From positions 8,246 through 72,245 of the forward strand of contig JADGJC010000136.1 in assembly GCA_027596075.1 (NCBI GenBank): a stretch of DNA of 64,000 nt, written 5' to 3'. The position numbers and the translations under genes are program-made. This DNA comes from Rhizophlyctis rosea (lineage: Eukaryota; Chytridiomycota; Chytridiomycetes; Rhizophlyctidales; Rhizophlyctidaceae). Position 1 is the first letter of the stretch, and every line of letters begins with the position of its first letter. Shown here one piece after another: positions 47,601-56,700 of this stretch. The notes under the pieces were generated by a model. It was not told where the DNA came from. It was given only the letters and a program-made list of their open reading frames with translations, and did not search any database.

Positions 47601-48183
47601 CGGACGTTGATGATCTTTCCGACACGTATATGATGTGGATGATATATTTGAGGCGTTTCCTCCTGATTGAGTGCAACTAAAGAGTGTCACGATGGTTTCG
47701 ACTGAAGTATGTTTTGTCCTGTTTCGAAATGTCTGCGTGGGAAAGGGTGGGTGGGGAATACACTGGGTTGGGGAGATGGTGTTGTTTGCTTATGGGAGGC
47801 ACAGTAAATTGACCCAGCCACATCACCGATCCCATCTAATTACCCACCCTCCTTCAAACCTTTCTCTTCATGTACTTCAATGTCAAATAGCAGGGTATTG
47901 AACGCACTCAGATGCCCATGAACAAGCCAATGTAGATGCTATCAATCTTGGTATATTGTACTCAGACGCGAAATTATGTATAAGTATTTATCAACGTGAT
48001 GCAACCTATAGTAACCCTCCGTGCCGACAACTTTGCTGGTTTCCTCCAACAACTTTGCTGGTTCCCTCCAACGACAACAAATGGACTAACACTGATACTC
48101 CTGACCATACGCATCCCCCACCAACCCACACCACATCCGGCCAAAGTCATCGATACACAATCCCACCGACCCATCCATCCCAG
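47601..48183. other. Intergenic
   Basis: 5' flank of the SPO22-like gene and 3' flank of the fusion gene. A direct repeat, AACTTTGCTGGTT(T/C)CCTCCAAC, occurs twice in a row at about 48029-48072. Nothing coding is supported. Confidence 0.5.
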
Positions 48184-51100
48184 TCACAACCTAACGCGCA
48201 AAAACCGGTCCCGGTCTGCCAACATTTCCGGCGGAATATGGAGAATCGAGGACAGAAGGAACGGCTTCTTATCGGCAACAGCTTGTTCGATGGCAGCGTG
48301 AGCCTCAAGACAGGCCTGTTGAAATTGTTTGGCATTCGTTGTGGCCGCAGCGACGTTGTTGTTGTATTGCTTGGGATCCAGGACGATGAGGGGCACGTCA
48401 CCCGCATTTTTGAGACGTGGTCGGCGTTCCCAGTGGACCGAGCGTGCGTCAAAAATGTAAGGTCGTCGGACTTGCACGGCCCGCGTAGCGTAGTCGAATG
48501 AGTTCCCAAAAAATTTGAAGAATCCCATCACGATACTCCCGAGACTCTGCCCCTGTAGAGTTTCCCGCGAATGGCGCAGATATGCCGCACAAAGGATGAT
48601 GGAGCAAAATCCCGTGATACCCCCTGTGCCGCTCAACCCACTGATATCCAACCAAAGCTTAATCAACATAACAATGGGCGCCAACTGCCTTTCCTCCGCC
48701 AACAACTTCTTCACCGCCTCGGAACCTTGGATTCCACTCATATTGTTGAATGTCGCGTCAATATGAAGCCCGCTGTGGTCGTCAACGAGCTTCAGGACCG
48801 GACAATATGACTTCAAAATCGGGTTAAAGGTTCCCTGACGCGCAAGAGCCTTGAACGCTGGCGAGTAGCTAGCAAGACCATTATGCGCGACATCGTACGC
48901 ATCGAGCCCATAGTCATCCCCGCCATCCCGACGGATCACCAGATCCAAATCGCCCGTCGGCAAGTATAGCCTGTTGGAGTACGAACCGAATGCGCCAACC
49001 ATGACGCTCGGACCCAGCGACCTGCCATAGAAGGCGATGACACGGCCTCGCTTCTCATGCTCGCCATCAGTAGGTTTGATGTAAGCATAATACGCCTCAA
49101 GCTCCAATGTCAGATGATCCACCGTGCCCTTGTCGCTGTGTATGTCCACTCCCGCCAAAAACGGACACCGCTGCACAGCATCACGAATGTTCTTCTCCTT
49201 CTCAATCTTCCGCCGCAAAAGGTCTAACGTCTTCGCCCTCGTCACCTCCGCCGCATCCGCCACGCCCTCCGTCCGTGTTCCCTTCAATTGAGGATTGTCA
49301 TCTGCCGTTCCATCGCCGTTTACTGAGTTCAGGACCTTGAAGCGACGGTTATGAATCCGCATGAACGGCAAGATGAGGTGTACGCCGATCGAACTTTGAC
49401 AGAGGGTATCTAACACGTTTGGCAGAACGGACAGAATCGACGGAGACAAATTGATGGTCGCCAAGATGTCGAGCAATGTCTGGGGGAGGCCGAGTTCACA
49501 GAGACGGCCGATAAACGGAGCATCATCTTGGATGAAAGCGATCAATAGGTTTACCGCTATGAAACATATCAGTATGGCATTGACATCAGTAAGAGGAATA
49601 AGATTTGCCCATACCTGACACAAATAACCGCGAGCTTGGCGCAACGGCCCCTTGGAGTAGAATGCGAAGTAGACAGTTCGGCAATGGTGTGTACAGCAGT
49701 ATCAATCTTCTCAATGATGGACAATTTTGATTGATGATAATGCGGGTGAGGATCTCTAGGAAGAAAATGACCCGTTCTTCACCCGCGCCATCCTCCGATG
49801 CACGTTTGTACGCTTCCGTTACCGAGTCCTGAGTGCGCTTTCAGAGCTGTGGGCGAGGCAATGGTACGCAAGTTACCGACCTGAATCAGCCGAACAACAC
49901 ACCGCAATCCATCAGCATGAACGCAAGAAACGAGAGCTTCTTCACATCCGAAGAGGATGTTGTCCATCATTGCGACGGTTTTGGTGATGACCTAAATGGT
50001 TATTGCAAAGGAATGAGCAACCACATCGTAACATTCACGTAGATTCAAAATTTTCACCTTGATCTGGCTTTCCCTCCGATTATCCAACAAATGAATCAAA
50101 GTAGGAACCAGCCCCGCAGAAACAAGCATCGTCCCGCCAGTCTGAGTCGCGCAAAGTCGCGAAATGAACCCGAACAATGAATCCACGTATTGTGCGGGTA
50201 CTGTGCATTCTGCATGAAGACAGTTCAGCTGTCGAACATCGTAGAAGGGTGAAACATACCATCTTTATCCATCTCCGTCAGGGCATTCCTCAAACTGTAC
50301 ATCAAGATCCGGTGGTTGGCAGATGCGTTGATCGGCGTGAGCACTTCTGAAAGTTTTGTGTGGTGGCTGGAGATGCTGTCCAGGGCGTGAAGGGCGGCGA
50401 TTCGAAAATCCTAATTTCAACGCGGCCCGATCAGATAAATTCGATCTCCATGAGATAAAAGGAATGGGCGGTACATACGTAGCCCACTTCTTTCGCCGAA
50501 CACAGATCCGCCAGCTTCTGCACCAGATCCGGTTCGTGCAGGAGGATCTTGTTCTGAGCAATGTCTTCCGAGACCAGAATTGCTAGAATCACATGTCAGT
50601 ACCAATCGGGTGTCGCTGGGTGCACGAGTAACGAACCTAATACAGCAATAGCATTCATCCGGCTAAGCAACAACTTCTTCCTCTCCTGCGAATCCGCCAA
50701 CCCAAAAGCGACCCTGACCCGCTGATAAAGCGCAAACCGATGCGCGTCAGGCACGTCGTGCTTCTCAACAAGTTCCTTATACAAATCCCGACTGCTCTTC
50801 CCAGACTCCATCACGTTATTGACGTTGATGGTGATCAGCCCATGTAGAGTCGTTTTGGTCGTGTTCCGGTAGAACCGGTACGTGACGGAGGGCCATTCGA
50901 GCGATAGCTCGACCTTTCCGGCGGCGAGTTGGGTGAACGAGACGGAGAAGTATTTTGGGCCCCAGTGTTGTGCGAGGGTTATGAGACGGTCTTGCGAGGT
51001 GCCGAATGCGGTGCGGAGCGATCTTTGGTTGTGCATTTGTTGGGCGGAGCGGAAGAGGAGGCGGAGGGAGGCGTTTAGGACGTCGAGGTCTGAAGTGTGC

Positions 51101-51708
51101 ATCAGGATCAATAGATGCTGTGATTTTGAGAGACGCAGGGGTTAGTCATTTTCCGAATCCCGGACGAGATTGCGTCAAACTGCCCGGCATGCGTTCCCCA
51201 TCGCCTCTCTCGCATTCAACACCGCCCCCCATCCCTCTCTCTCCCAAAACCATCCAAAAACAACAAAACCCACCTCATGAGAACAATTCAAATTCCTATT
51301 CGTACAATTCTCCATCAAAACCGTTCGAAACTCCAAAATCGCCATAACAGCCTCTTTATCCTCCTGCGAAAATTCCCTCTCTTGCACACGATTCAAATCA
51401 TATTCCTTCACCAACTCCTCCAGGATGCTGTCAAAGTAATTGAGAACACCGACCCAGTGGAAGAGATCGGTTTTGGGGTAACACCATGGCTGGAGGGAGG
51501 CGACAACGTGGACGAGTTGAGATTTGGGTAACGACACCATGGATAGGATCAGAGTTTTCAAACCCTCGGGCTGATGGCAAGATGAGCAGTTAGTGCCCCG
51601 ACTTTTGTGGATGAAAGAGGCCAAGTGATCAACGCGGTCGCTGCGTGGTTGCCGCGATCTGCCGAAACTTACCAGTTCCGTGAACGACTGGCTGCACCGT
51701 TCAGACAT
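48184..51708 (-). CDS. HUWE1/TOM1 N-terminus fused to TRF4-type poly(A) polymerase
   Basis: Starts at ATG 51708 with a 36-bp exon, joined to 51570-51274. The 5' exons read as the N-terminus of the giant HECT ligase HUWE1/TOM1: PWCYPKTDLFHWVGVLNYFD, then the DUF908 stretch LMHTSDLDVLNASLRLLFRS, HWGPKYFSVSFTQLAAGK and DUF913-like segments. The last exon begins in DUF913 (VNLLIAFIQDDAPFIGRLCE, LPNVLDTLCQSSIG) and without a stop or gap passes into a TRF4/PAPD5-type nucleotidyltransferase: GSYSNRLYLPTGDLDLVI with the catalytic D-x-D, the third Asp in LHIDATFNN, LIKLWLDISGLSGTGGI, and the PAP-associated LGSIVMGFFKFFGNSFDYAT. No HECT domain follows. TRF4 enzymes add short A tails to nuclear RNAs for exosome decay. 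The fused scaffold suggests a protein-binding armadillo-like arm on such an enzyme. The fusion function is inferred. Confidence 0.8.
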
Positions 51709-52572
51709 TATGGCAGCCGTTGGCCGTTGTGCGAAGGGATAGGCTTCAAGTAGAGTGAACAAGTAACACGCTTGAACTCGCGCTCGTGCGGATTAAGTAA
51801 GTTGGCTATTGGGTTGCTTTTGCAGGAAAAGATTGGGAGATGGGTATCAAGTAAATTCAAGTTGAGTGTTGCAGCTTTGCAGTGTGCTTTGGTGTCCGTG
51901 TCCGAGACAGCCGGCCAATTCAATTTGTCCGTGTAGCCGATGTAATTCCAGCCAGGACCAAATCGAATCTAGCCAATTGTGGGTCATTGTTTGTCACTAT
52001 CCAAGCCCCAGTCCGATGACTTGATGATCACCTGAATCAATCACTAGCACCAGTGCTCCACAGAGTCCACACATTTTCCCAACTTCGCTCTTTTTTCCTT
52101 TCCCATGGGCCATAACTTCCCAGCCTTCTTCCTCTCTACACCTAAACGGCGACGCTTTACAACGACCCGCAAGCAATCCAGGTGACGTGGTGTTGTGTTT
52201 GCTTTGTTTTCCGTCTCGTGAGCTGTTGGTAACTACTCGCTGCTTGGAGCACAACGCTGAAATACCAAAGGTGATGTGCCCGTTCGCTGTTTGCAATCTG
52301 CTGCCATAGACAGTGACTACTTTTGCCTTTCTCAGAGCCACGGCCGTCACGGCGAAGTAGAAGCGGAACTGAAAGACTATAAGCCACGAATACCCTCAAA
52401 AAGAGTGCAAGACCAAGTAAACCAAGTCCATGGACCAGCGTTCATGGCTGGCGTTAGCGTTGCACCGCCCTCCATATTCGCGCTGCGTCACCGTCGACCT
52501 TTTTGGTCACAAACTGTACACCGGCTCCGAGGGGTCGGATCAGGAAGGATGTTGCGGGGCTGGGAAGTGTCA

Positions 52573-52609
52573 TTCAGGCCGAAACGACCGTTACAGCCGG
52601 TGGCTCCTC
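52573..52609 (-). repeat. Dispersed repeat copy 1
   Basis: Plus strand has TTCAGGCCGAAACGACCGTT then ACAGCCGGTGGCTCCTC. Read on the minus strand it gives GATGCNGRFGLN. Related copies lie at 59453-59490 and 60989-61027. Confidence 0.7.
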
Positions 52610-53220
52610 TACGGGGGTGCAAAGTCTCTTTTAGCAAAAGCGCCTGCTGGTTTTTGCTCGTGTGGTTTCCACCCACACAAAACACACTTTTTGCTCTGGT
52701 CTTTTGAGAATCGCCTCATGTGCGAGAAGGGTTCGTAGCCCTTACAGAGCTTTCTGGTTCGACATCACCAAAGATACTGCTTTCAATATTGGATAAGGCA
52801 TGGTTCGCCATCCGAGTTTTCGTTCATCCGAATAAGTTCATAACTGTGGTCCTCTTTCATAGACATAGCTTGCACAACCGCATGCACTCCCTCATCCATC
52901 CGCATGGACCTTCTTCGCCCATCAAATGACCGGATGGCAATGCACAACTGCTTCATCCACCACACGCAACGTCGACCCCCTACCTAATACTTCACATTAA
53001 TCGGCTAATTGCCAATAGAAACTCGAAAACAGCCCCGCCCCAATCGACATCCGCCTTCCAACCTTCCCACGCTCGTCAAGTCCCCCCTCCTTACTAAAGA
53101 ACAATGAAAATAAAGGGCAGAGGAGAAGAAAATATAACGCCTTGCATCACCCTCCACACTCGCGCCGAAGCCGTCATAGCTCAGACTTCCTCCTCAGCAT
53201 TCCCGCCACCTTTCGACCAA

Positions 53221-53430
53221 GATCTGGGATGGATGTTGCGGGAGGCCCTGTGTCATGCAGGCCAGAAAAGTCCATTCCAGGCGGGGGCTAGAAGTCTCGT
53301 TCTCGTTATTTGTTCGTAGAGTTTATCCATGCATCCTCCCTCTCTTGATTATGCTCTGGTCTTTTTGAGAGTCGCATACCCTCGTGGGTTGCAAGAAGGG
53401 TTCGAAGCCCTTACAGAGCATTGGGAATGT
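53221..53430. repeat. Second copy of a 52.5-kb repeat
   Basis: Matches parts of 52540-52760, with conserved blocks at both ends (GGATGTTGCGG; TTCGAAGCCCTTACAGAGC) and a diverged middle. The copies are in the same orientation, about 0.65-0.7 kb apart. Confidence 0.6.
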
Positions 53431-53765: not shown

Positions 53766-56700
53766 CTACTTTCCCGGCACAAGACTCTTCTGCCTTCCAC
53801 CCATCCTCCCTGCTAAATTGGTTATGCTTCGCTGTTGACTTCCCATCCTTTTACTACGCTGGTTCTTTCCCGCTGCTCCCGAGGCATGTGCAGAGGCGTG
53901 TGTTGACGTAGCCTTCGGTGCTTCACTCGCAGTACCACCGCCTCCTGTTGCGGATGGTGGCAGTGCCTCCCCAAACGCACTTTCATCATCGGGGTTAACT
54001 CCACTAACTCTCCGACTAACTGCCGCACTAACATTACTCCCAATCCCCGTCATCGAAGCTCCCAACCCCCCTTTCTCCATCGGTGTCGGTGTCACGCTAC
54101 TACTGCCCCCTGACACGTCCTCCATCGATGCATGGGTGCTGCCGCCAGCGATGGGGGGTTCGTGGTACGCCGGCATGCCGTGATGCATGTTTTCGATTTT
54201 CTCGCGCATGGAGAGGGAGGAGGATTTTGAGGGGGTTTTTGTTAGTGGGGCGGGGTCGGGGGTGTCGTCTTCGGTGGTGGGTGGTGGGGGGAGGGGTGTG
54301 GGTGGTGGGGACTGGGGCAGGGGGAGCGCCGAGGCGAGGTGGAGGGGTGCTGGGTCGGAGTAGCTTCCGTCTGGTGTGGGAAAACCATTGTTAATGCGAC
54401 ACGTTAATGATAAGAAAGATAATGCAACAAACAAAACACTTCAAAACTCACCCTGTCCCTCCCCAACCCAACAAACCCCAACCCAATAACTCCCACCCTC
54501 CACTAACCCCTCCACATCCACGTCACCACCAGGAACGGGACCAGCGACCAGCGCTGCGTCTCGCATGTCTTTTCTTTTTCCTGCAATGACTTTACATCCC
54601 ACGATCGGGGGTGAGGAGTCTGATGGTGGGTAAGGCGGGAGGTGTATCCGTGCACTTGTCGGTGTAAGGACTGTGATGGAAGGTGTGGGAGGTGTGGGGA
54701 GCATGACGTCTGGGCGAATCAGGAAGTGATGTGAGGTTGAAAATAAGTTGTGGCAAAGCGTAGCGTAAACGCTCCGCAAGCAAAGTTTCAAAAAATGACA
54801 TAGAACCAACATAGCTACTTTGCCTTACCTAACCGAACCCCCTCACTCCCCACACTCCTCTCACTCCACCCCTTCCCATTCCTCGCCTCAACATAAAACA
54901 CATACGTCTCCCCCTGCAGCAACCCTTCGATTACATGCGCTACCTCGCCTGATGCATTTACTCCCGTGGCGGGGATTTCGGTGACTTCGGAAGTGTCGCC
55001 TGAACGGGTTGTGGTTATTCGGTAAGATTGAACGTCAGACCCGCCGTTTGGTGGACAGGAAGAGTAGAGTTGTATGGACGTTGAGGAGAGTTTTTTTATG
55101 TGGGGTTTTGTGGGGGTTGAGGGGGGGATGTCTGTGTAAGGGAGGGGTGTGGTTAGAGACGGGTTTTTGATGCCGGATTACCAATTCATAAAAAGCACCA
55201 ACAACGGACAGAACCCCTCCCCTGTGGTCCCTACACCCACTCAACCAATTGCTCCCGTAAACCCGATATTGACACTCACCAATAACAACCCCCTCACTCC
55301 ACCCACTCGCCTCCCCAACACCCATCACATTCTCCGCCCTAACCCGGAAATAATGCATCACACCCATCCGGGGCGCCTCATACAAGAATTCCACTCCCTC
55401 CCCACCCTCATCTCTCTCCGGACTCCGTCCCCGTAGACTATCGACACTCGTCCCCCTCTCGCTTTCTCGTGTTGAAGTGCGGGTGCGCCGGGAACGAGTG
55501 TTCCGGACTAGGACGTCGGCGATGAAGGATTCGTCGGTGTGGGATGGGTGGCTTGAGTGGTAGATTCGGTATTTTCGGATGCGGGAGTGCGGGGTTGGTG
55601 TGGGGAAAGAGGGCGGTGGGGGCATGTGGAGGAGGAGGGTTGGGGGATTTGTGTGGGGAATTGGTGTTGGGGGTGGGGGTGCAGGTGGGAGGGCGTCTAG
55701 GGAAGTGGTGTGAGTGCTTTGAAAAGAAGGGATCTTACATTTTGCGAGATGGGAATGTGGAAGGTTAAAATACTCACCAACCAATATACTCGCAACATCC
55801 GACGGAGGCCCATCCACATCCGCACACCCCGCAACAACCTGGAAATAATACACCTTCCCAGGATCCAACCCCACCACCGTGACACAATGACTCTTTCCAG
55901 GTATTTTCACCCTACTTCCTTCCTTGCCCCCCCCAACAACCCTATCACCCTCCCTCTTCCCCTCATCATCCTCACTTTCCGCCCTCTTATGCACTCCCGC
56001 GTCGCTGCCACCCGTTGCCTTCCGAGTTCGTTTAGGTTTGCCTTCTTCCTTTTTCACGCCTTCGATTTCGACATGTACGGTGCGCACGTTTTCTACCATG
56101 GCTGGGTCGTCGGAGCATAGGAGGGTTATTCGGGTGAATTCGTATTCTTTTTCGGGTGGGTGGGGTGGAGGTGATGTGGTGGGGGGTTGTGAAGTTTGGT
56201 CGGATGGTGCGGGGTGGGAGGAACCTCCTTCCCATCGGTCTGGAATGGTGATTTGGACGTCGACGGTTGTGGAGTTTGTGAGAGTTGGGTGTGGGGTGGA
56301 GAGGGTTGGGAGTTTATCTGTGCATGTGGGATGTAGTATTGACGAGGACATAAGCAACAGAAATGATGATGACTTGTTACGGAGAGCAATTGAGTAGATA
56401 GCGTAACGGCATGCTGTTGGACAACGAACCATATATCTCCGCTCTTCTTCTAGCCTCACTCTCCTCCTTCTTCCGTTTCGCACAGCTCCGACATATTCCG
56501 TCGGATTGGCGGTGAACGGCGTTGTAGCGGTAAATCGACAAGGAGGCGATTTCCTTGTCTTTGTCCTGTTTGCAAATAGCGATTTCATACATTAGCTCGG
56601 ACTCGCAACTGCACTTTTCATTACCCATTTCTCTTGGGCGGCAAATTGGGTGATGAGATTGAATAGCGTAGAGACTATGGCTACCTTGATAGCGTCCTCC

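Follow-up and report, generated by a model that had tools for sequence, protein, structure and literature searches.

Enzymes of the TRF4 type depend on separate RNA-binding partners. In the HECT ligase family HUWE1/TOM1, the usual plan of 204 full-length fungal TOM1 proteins places the HECT domain at the end (PMC5913265). In the papers searched, the connection between Tom1 and Trf4 is confined to yeast genetics, where Fpr3/Fpr4 suppress the loss of Tom1 and require TRAMP5 (PMC6893378); it is indirect, and is set aside as evidence here.

The window analysed is a 64,000-nt stretch of DNA (positions 8246-72245 of contig C42) from Rhizophlyctis rosea, a soil chytrid of the order Rhizophlyctidales, whose genome assembly comprises 44.1 Mb in 634 contigs. 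On the minus strand, at 48184..51708, it contains a predicted gene in which a HUWE1/TOM1 N-terminal arm is followed in frame by a TRF4-like nucleotidyltransferase core. The arm resembles the HUWE1/TOM1 gene on contig C272 of the same genome in having DUF908, the first half of DUF913, all eight introns and an armadillo-like form. It differs in ending inside DUF913, in the lack of a detectable UBA, UBM or HECT domain, and in having glutamine at the position of Tom1 Leu615. Like yeast Trf4 (3nyb) and the TRF4-like gene on contig C568, the second half has the nucleotidyltransferase core, PAP_assoc, and the GS, D-x-D and third Asp positions of the TRF4/PAPD5 type, from which the product is set apart by its 595-residue HUWE1 arm and by a long branch separate from C568 and the Coemansia TRF4. 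We read the locus as a protein-coding fusion gene with a history of gene conversion, and give this a probability of about 0.6 on the sequence evidence. That it is coding is suggested by the single open frame, the family matches of both halves, the retention of the catalytic positions and the sharing of eight out of eight introns.

Gene structure and the two halves of the product

Hand splicing gives nine exons on the minus strand (51708-51673, 51570-51274, 51117-50637, 50582-50479, 50410-50260, 50209-50058, 49991-49881, 49828-49615 and 49556-48184), separated by eight introns of 50-156 nt that are GT-AG throughout. The resulting 972 codons are open from the ATG at 51708 to the stop at 48184. 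The join recurs in the NCBI model of 949 aa (P0001; HDV00_001771 of Rhizophlyctis rosea in the public record), which is identical to ours over residues 500-972 (in the 972-aa numbering) and is without 23 of our residues, all upstream of the join. The first-pass annotation had described an in-frame join inside one exon with no stop, N or intron, and this is what is found. The arm passes into the core inside exon 9, there is no N within 48001-53000, and the frame is unbroken across the 3.5 kb of the gene, on a contig of 104 kb. The stretch that links the arm to the core (aa 596-646, 49165..49317) is open and lies within exon 9. In simulated sequences a 60-codon linker stays open by chance in 590 of 4000 cases, and one of 150 codons in 20 of 4000. 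An open linker is thus unremarkable by itself, and the case rests on the homology of both sides and on the history of the arm. Upstream of the gene, there is a dispersed repeat at 52480-52760, for which the genome gives at least 21 matches when the query copy is counted, and a related 33-nt piece lies at 53390. The upstream gene has a fibronectin type III domain at 54815-55177 on the minus strand (6.6e-11), with a second one just under the cut-off at 55035-56591.

The arm (aa 1-595, 49318..51708) is identified by Pfam and PDB sequence matches, by its introns and by fold. DUF908 is matched at 8e-53, and DUF913 at 1.3e-7 over positions 2-199 of 382 only, so that this domain is incomplete. Among PDB sequences, human HUWE1 matches residues 7-419 (2.4e-31) and yeast TOM1 residues 4-577 (6e-13), upholding the family assignment made at first sight. 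Residues 435-605 alone gave no HUWE1 match in a phmmer search of the PDB, which we count against the main reading. In a structure model of P0001 calculated from a four-row alignment (mean pLDDT 52, pTM 0.45) the arm is a helical solenoid. The model is usable for the arm only, where its confidence ranges from low to moderate; that of the core is poor. A fold search of the PDB with this model placed Tom1/HUWE1 entries at ranks 1-8, the best match having a query TM-score of 0.35. An AlphaFold2 model of the core from a two-row alignment, with a mean pLDDT of 32, was discarded. The missing HECT domain was correctly remarked upon from the letters: Pfam found no HECT, UBA or UBM in the product, and a search of the genome for HECT gave no match on C42. 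Four reading frames of the C272 gene (part of the spliced gene) detected no remnant of HUWE1 downstream in the window at E 1e-3.

The core (aa 647-932, 48307..49164) is matched by yeast Trf4 (3nyb) at 1.5e-26 over exactly these residues of the whole product. When the core alone is the query the match to Trf4 is 2.7e-27, and the next family in the PDB is at 5.4e-8. Pfam finds the MTPAP-like central palm (9e-13) and PAP_assoc (aa 853-912, 48367..48546; 4.1e-9). Of the four profiles named in advance, DUF908, DUF913 and PAP_assoc are thus present, while NTP_transf_2 is below its cut-off (16.6 versus 21 bits). G706-S707, D718, D720 and D782 align with the Coemansia protein P0002, so the catalytic positions are kept. 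Note that the 3nyb chain has alanine at the position of the third Asp; this chain is probably an engineered mutant.

The first-pass annotation also proposed looking for a second full-length HUWE1 and a stand-alone TRF4 in related chytrid genomes; in this genome itself there are a separate HUWE1 and a separate TRF4-like gene. The six matches to DUF908 in the genome fall at two loci, C42 and C272. Reading frames on C272 carry the remainder of DUF913, UBA, three UBM stretches and HECT, which makes this a HUWE1 locus; it includes a short run of N, and its first 798 codons only were spliced. The separate TRF4-like gene lies on C568, and three pieces of it are 39-47% identical to the Coemansia protein. 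The relatives of the core outside C42 (11 genome matches) are 22-34% identical to it, and none of them is therefore a recent parent. We calculated a tree of 14 rows, of which two were hand-joined and one (C323) fills 46% of the columns, with C436, C198 and C403 left out. The C568 gene groups with the Coemansia TRF4, and the fusion core forms a long branch apart from both (support 81/77, a weak placement). The TRF4-type assignment is supported by the Trf4 match, PAP_assoc and the catalytic motifs; on grouping with these TRF4 sequences the tree gives no firm placement. We use the term TRF4-like. On C492, C410, C265, C474 and C85 there are seven further stretches of TRF4-like nucleotidyltransferase, each in a single open frame, of which one has an internal TGA. 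They are grouped apart from TRF4 in the tree, and could possibly be a local expansion of tailing enzymes.

History of the arm

The intron positions of the arm coincide with those of the C272 HUWE1 in alignment column and phase in 8 of 8 cases, and the intron before exon 9, the exon that contains the join, agrees in position and phase with the one before exon 9 of HUWE1. The similarity in sequence is by contrast very uneven. A two-breakpoint fit to the codons delimits a tract with sharp borders at aa 43-421 (49950..51480), in which 88.9% of codon bases are identical to C272 compared with 45.7% outside; this fit is better than a uniform rate by 196 lnL units. Comparison of the fusion with C272 by blastn gives blocks of 84% and 80% identity, introns included. 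Two of the five introns within the tract (introns 2 and 6, at 0.68 and 0.76) lie above all of 30 shuffles, as against none of the three outside, and we count the low number within the tract against our reading. Age shows in the tract as well, and the introns support it in part. The arm between tract and linker (aa 422-595, 49318..49949, holding introns 7 and 8) is strongly diverged yet homologous to C272, its alignment scoring 117 where none of 500 shuffles exceeds 63. For residues 1-37 the score is 31, below the best shuffle of 34, and so their homology rests on the shared intron 1; this also counts against us.

A second strain labelled R. rosea provides an outside comparison through its HUWE1 N-terminus (P0003, HK097_009550). 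Omitting gap columns, aa 38-420 of the fusion are identical to C272 at 329 of 383 positions, where C272 and P0003 share 249 of 383. Over aa 421-600 the order is reversed, with 56 of 178 (31%) for the fusion and C272 and 134 of 178 for C272 and P0003; the unconverted arm and P0003 share 52 of 179 (29%). The fusion arm is thus both nearer to C272 and farther from it than P0003 is, indicating that the tract was exchanged later. The C272 tract is 65% identical to P0003, not 29%, from which we infer that conversion ran from HUWE1 into the fusion. Our preferred interpretation of the arm is an old paralogue of HUWE1, in which sequence from the resident HUWE1 gene later replaced the middle. The initial reading had the architecture and missed this history. 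We reject the idea that the entire arm was duplicated recently, as aa 421-600 are far more diverged than the tract, at synonymous sites included. The fusion likely predates the split of the two strains; a slight hint to the contrary is that C272 and P0003, which share 134/178 positions beside the tract, are less identical within it (249/383; Fisher p 0.015). In the two stretches compared, the HUWE1 N-termini of the two strains show 65-75% identity, so that the name R. rosea probably covers more than one species.

Within the tract, dN between the fusion and C272 is 0.073 and dS 0.332 (NG86), giving a pairwise dN/dS of about 0.22. There are 54 amino-acid differences, of which 30 fall on the fusion branch and 5 on HUWE1, with 19 assigned to neither. 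On the assumption that dS is split evenly, dN/dS is about 0.38 on the fusion branch and 0.06 on that of HUWE1. The tract is best read as having been under purifying selection since the conversion, more loosely than in HUWE1; the location of 30 out of 35 assigned changes on the fusion branch indicates loose constraint and is counted against. In the diverged part of the arm synonymous sites are saturated (dS 2.7), and it runs up to the core without a stop and without terminating separately. Third-position GC is 0.55 in this part, 0.66 in the tract and 0.62 in the core, the GC value of the introns being 0.49; the diverged part is nearer to the intron value, again counting against the main reading.

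One position bears on what the arm has retained. As reported in PMC13196369, the Tom1 substitution L615R at the arm-ubiquitin interface lowers the formation of Lys48 chains. Position 615 of chain 9egk is the leucine of a CLN motif, and we have therefore taken the numbering of that chain as native. Leucine is also present in C272, P0003, Solemya and human HUWE1 in our alignments, where the fusion has Gln569 (49396..49398). With glutamine at this contact, ubiquitin handling is probably not the property kept in the fusion arm.

Occurrence elsewhere

With the 972-aa product as query, a database of about 5.8 billion proteins returned the fusion itself, the Coemansia TRF4-like protein, P0003, a further protein (P0004) of the second strain and a Solemya HUWE1 fragment. 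These word-limited searches, in which 7996 and 7992 candidates were scored, found no second protein pairing the two halves. When the core was the query, at the length of a stand-alone protein, none of the 7940 candidates scored reached E 1e-3; since yeast Trf4 matches the core so strongly in the PDB (2.7e-27), this empty result reflects the limit of the word filter and not absence. No counterpart of the fusion was found among the proteins of the second strain in the word-limited searches, which we count against our reading. No publication on the pairing was found in the literature searched, in agreement with the initial statement that no such protein was known. As judged from its sequence, the HUWE1 arm with a TRF4-like core is a new domain architecture, seen in one genome, and the proposed gene-conversion history of the arm is likewise new here.

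P0004 (HK097_002627) is a model of 1191 aa that combines HSP70, a fragment of HUWE1 DUF908 and nucleoside diphosphate kinase. Like the fusion it has HUWE1 DUF908 outside HUWE1, but the neighbours of the fragment are different. The fragment is identical to HUWE1 of its own strain at 209 of 289 positions, and to C272 at 156 of 290. Either the P0004 gene model is wrong, or pieces of the HUWE1 arm may have been copied elsewhere repeatedly in this group.

Alternative readings and possible function

The strongest rival, which we nevertheless consider unlikely, is that two neighbouring transcripts are made, one from a shortened HUWE1 copy and the other from a separate TRF4-like gene. The first could end early, for example at the stop at 49586 if intron 8 were retained, and the second could begin in exon 9 at the ATG at 49362 (Met581). 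Both of these signals are present, the chance opening of a linker is common as calculated above, and the spurious merging of adjacent gene models is known in HECT annotation (PMC5913265). However, the spliced arm runs to the core without a stop, the junction lies in a single exon that starts at the position and phase of HUWE1 exon 9, the internal ATG is located within arm sequence, and the diverged part of the arm has stayed open despite its age.

It is less probable still that the locus encodes a fusion whose role is to regulate HUWE1, the arm competing for HUWE1 clients or for the solenoid of HUWE1 itself and the core being secondary. Such a role would fit the middle of the arm being held HUWE1-like by conversion and the loss of the Leu615 contact, but the intact catalytic positions would be needless in a passive passenger. 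A decaying pseudogene or an assembly error is the least probable, despite the fragmented assembly and the faster change of the fusion arm, given a 3.5-kb frame free of N and breaks in a contig of 104 kb, dN/dS values in the tract of about 0.22 for the pair and, with dS split evenly, roughly 0.38 on the fusion branch, and an arm that beside the join is too diverged from C272 to be a mis-joined copy of that gene.

We therefore return to the coding fusion with its converted arm. In the DNA, a TRF4-like core follows in frame on a copied 5′ part of the HUWE1/TOM1 gene that has all eight intron positions; the copy would be old, and its middle (51480-49950) would much later have been overwritten by gene conversion from the resident HUWE1, the protein of the tract being maintained thereafter by purifying selection. 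The armadillo-like arm may act as a protein-binding scaffold. It would bring the tailing core to particular clients, either proteins or RNA-protein complexes, or to a surface shared with HUWE1, and at that site the core would add nucleotides to RNA 3′ ends. The arm would so take over the recruiting role of the separate RNA-binding partners of TRF4. Recruitment of the core by the arm is a tentative proposal, and exosome targeting by the fusion is possible. A more speculative suggestion, and a doubtful one, is that the client-binding arm, kept HUWE1-like by conversion, takes the tailing enzyme to those orphan proteins, or particles of RNA and protein, that HUWE1 recognises, so that the RNA would be marked while HUWE1 handles the protein, linking protein quality control to RNA surveillance.

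If it is expressed as read here, the gene would be a natural experiment in which the HUWE1 arm has been cut from its ligase and given another enzyme, so that the binding role of the arm could be tested. The locus would also be a case in which an old fusion copy has undergone gene conversion with the intact gene.
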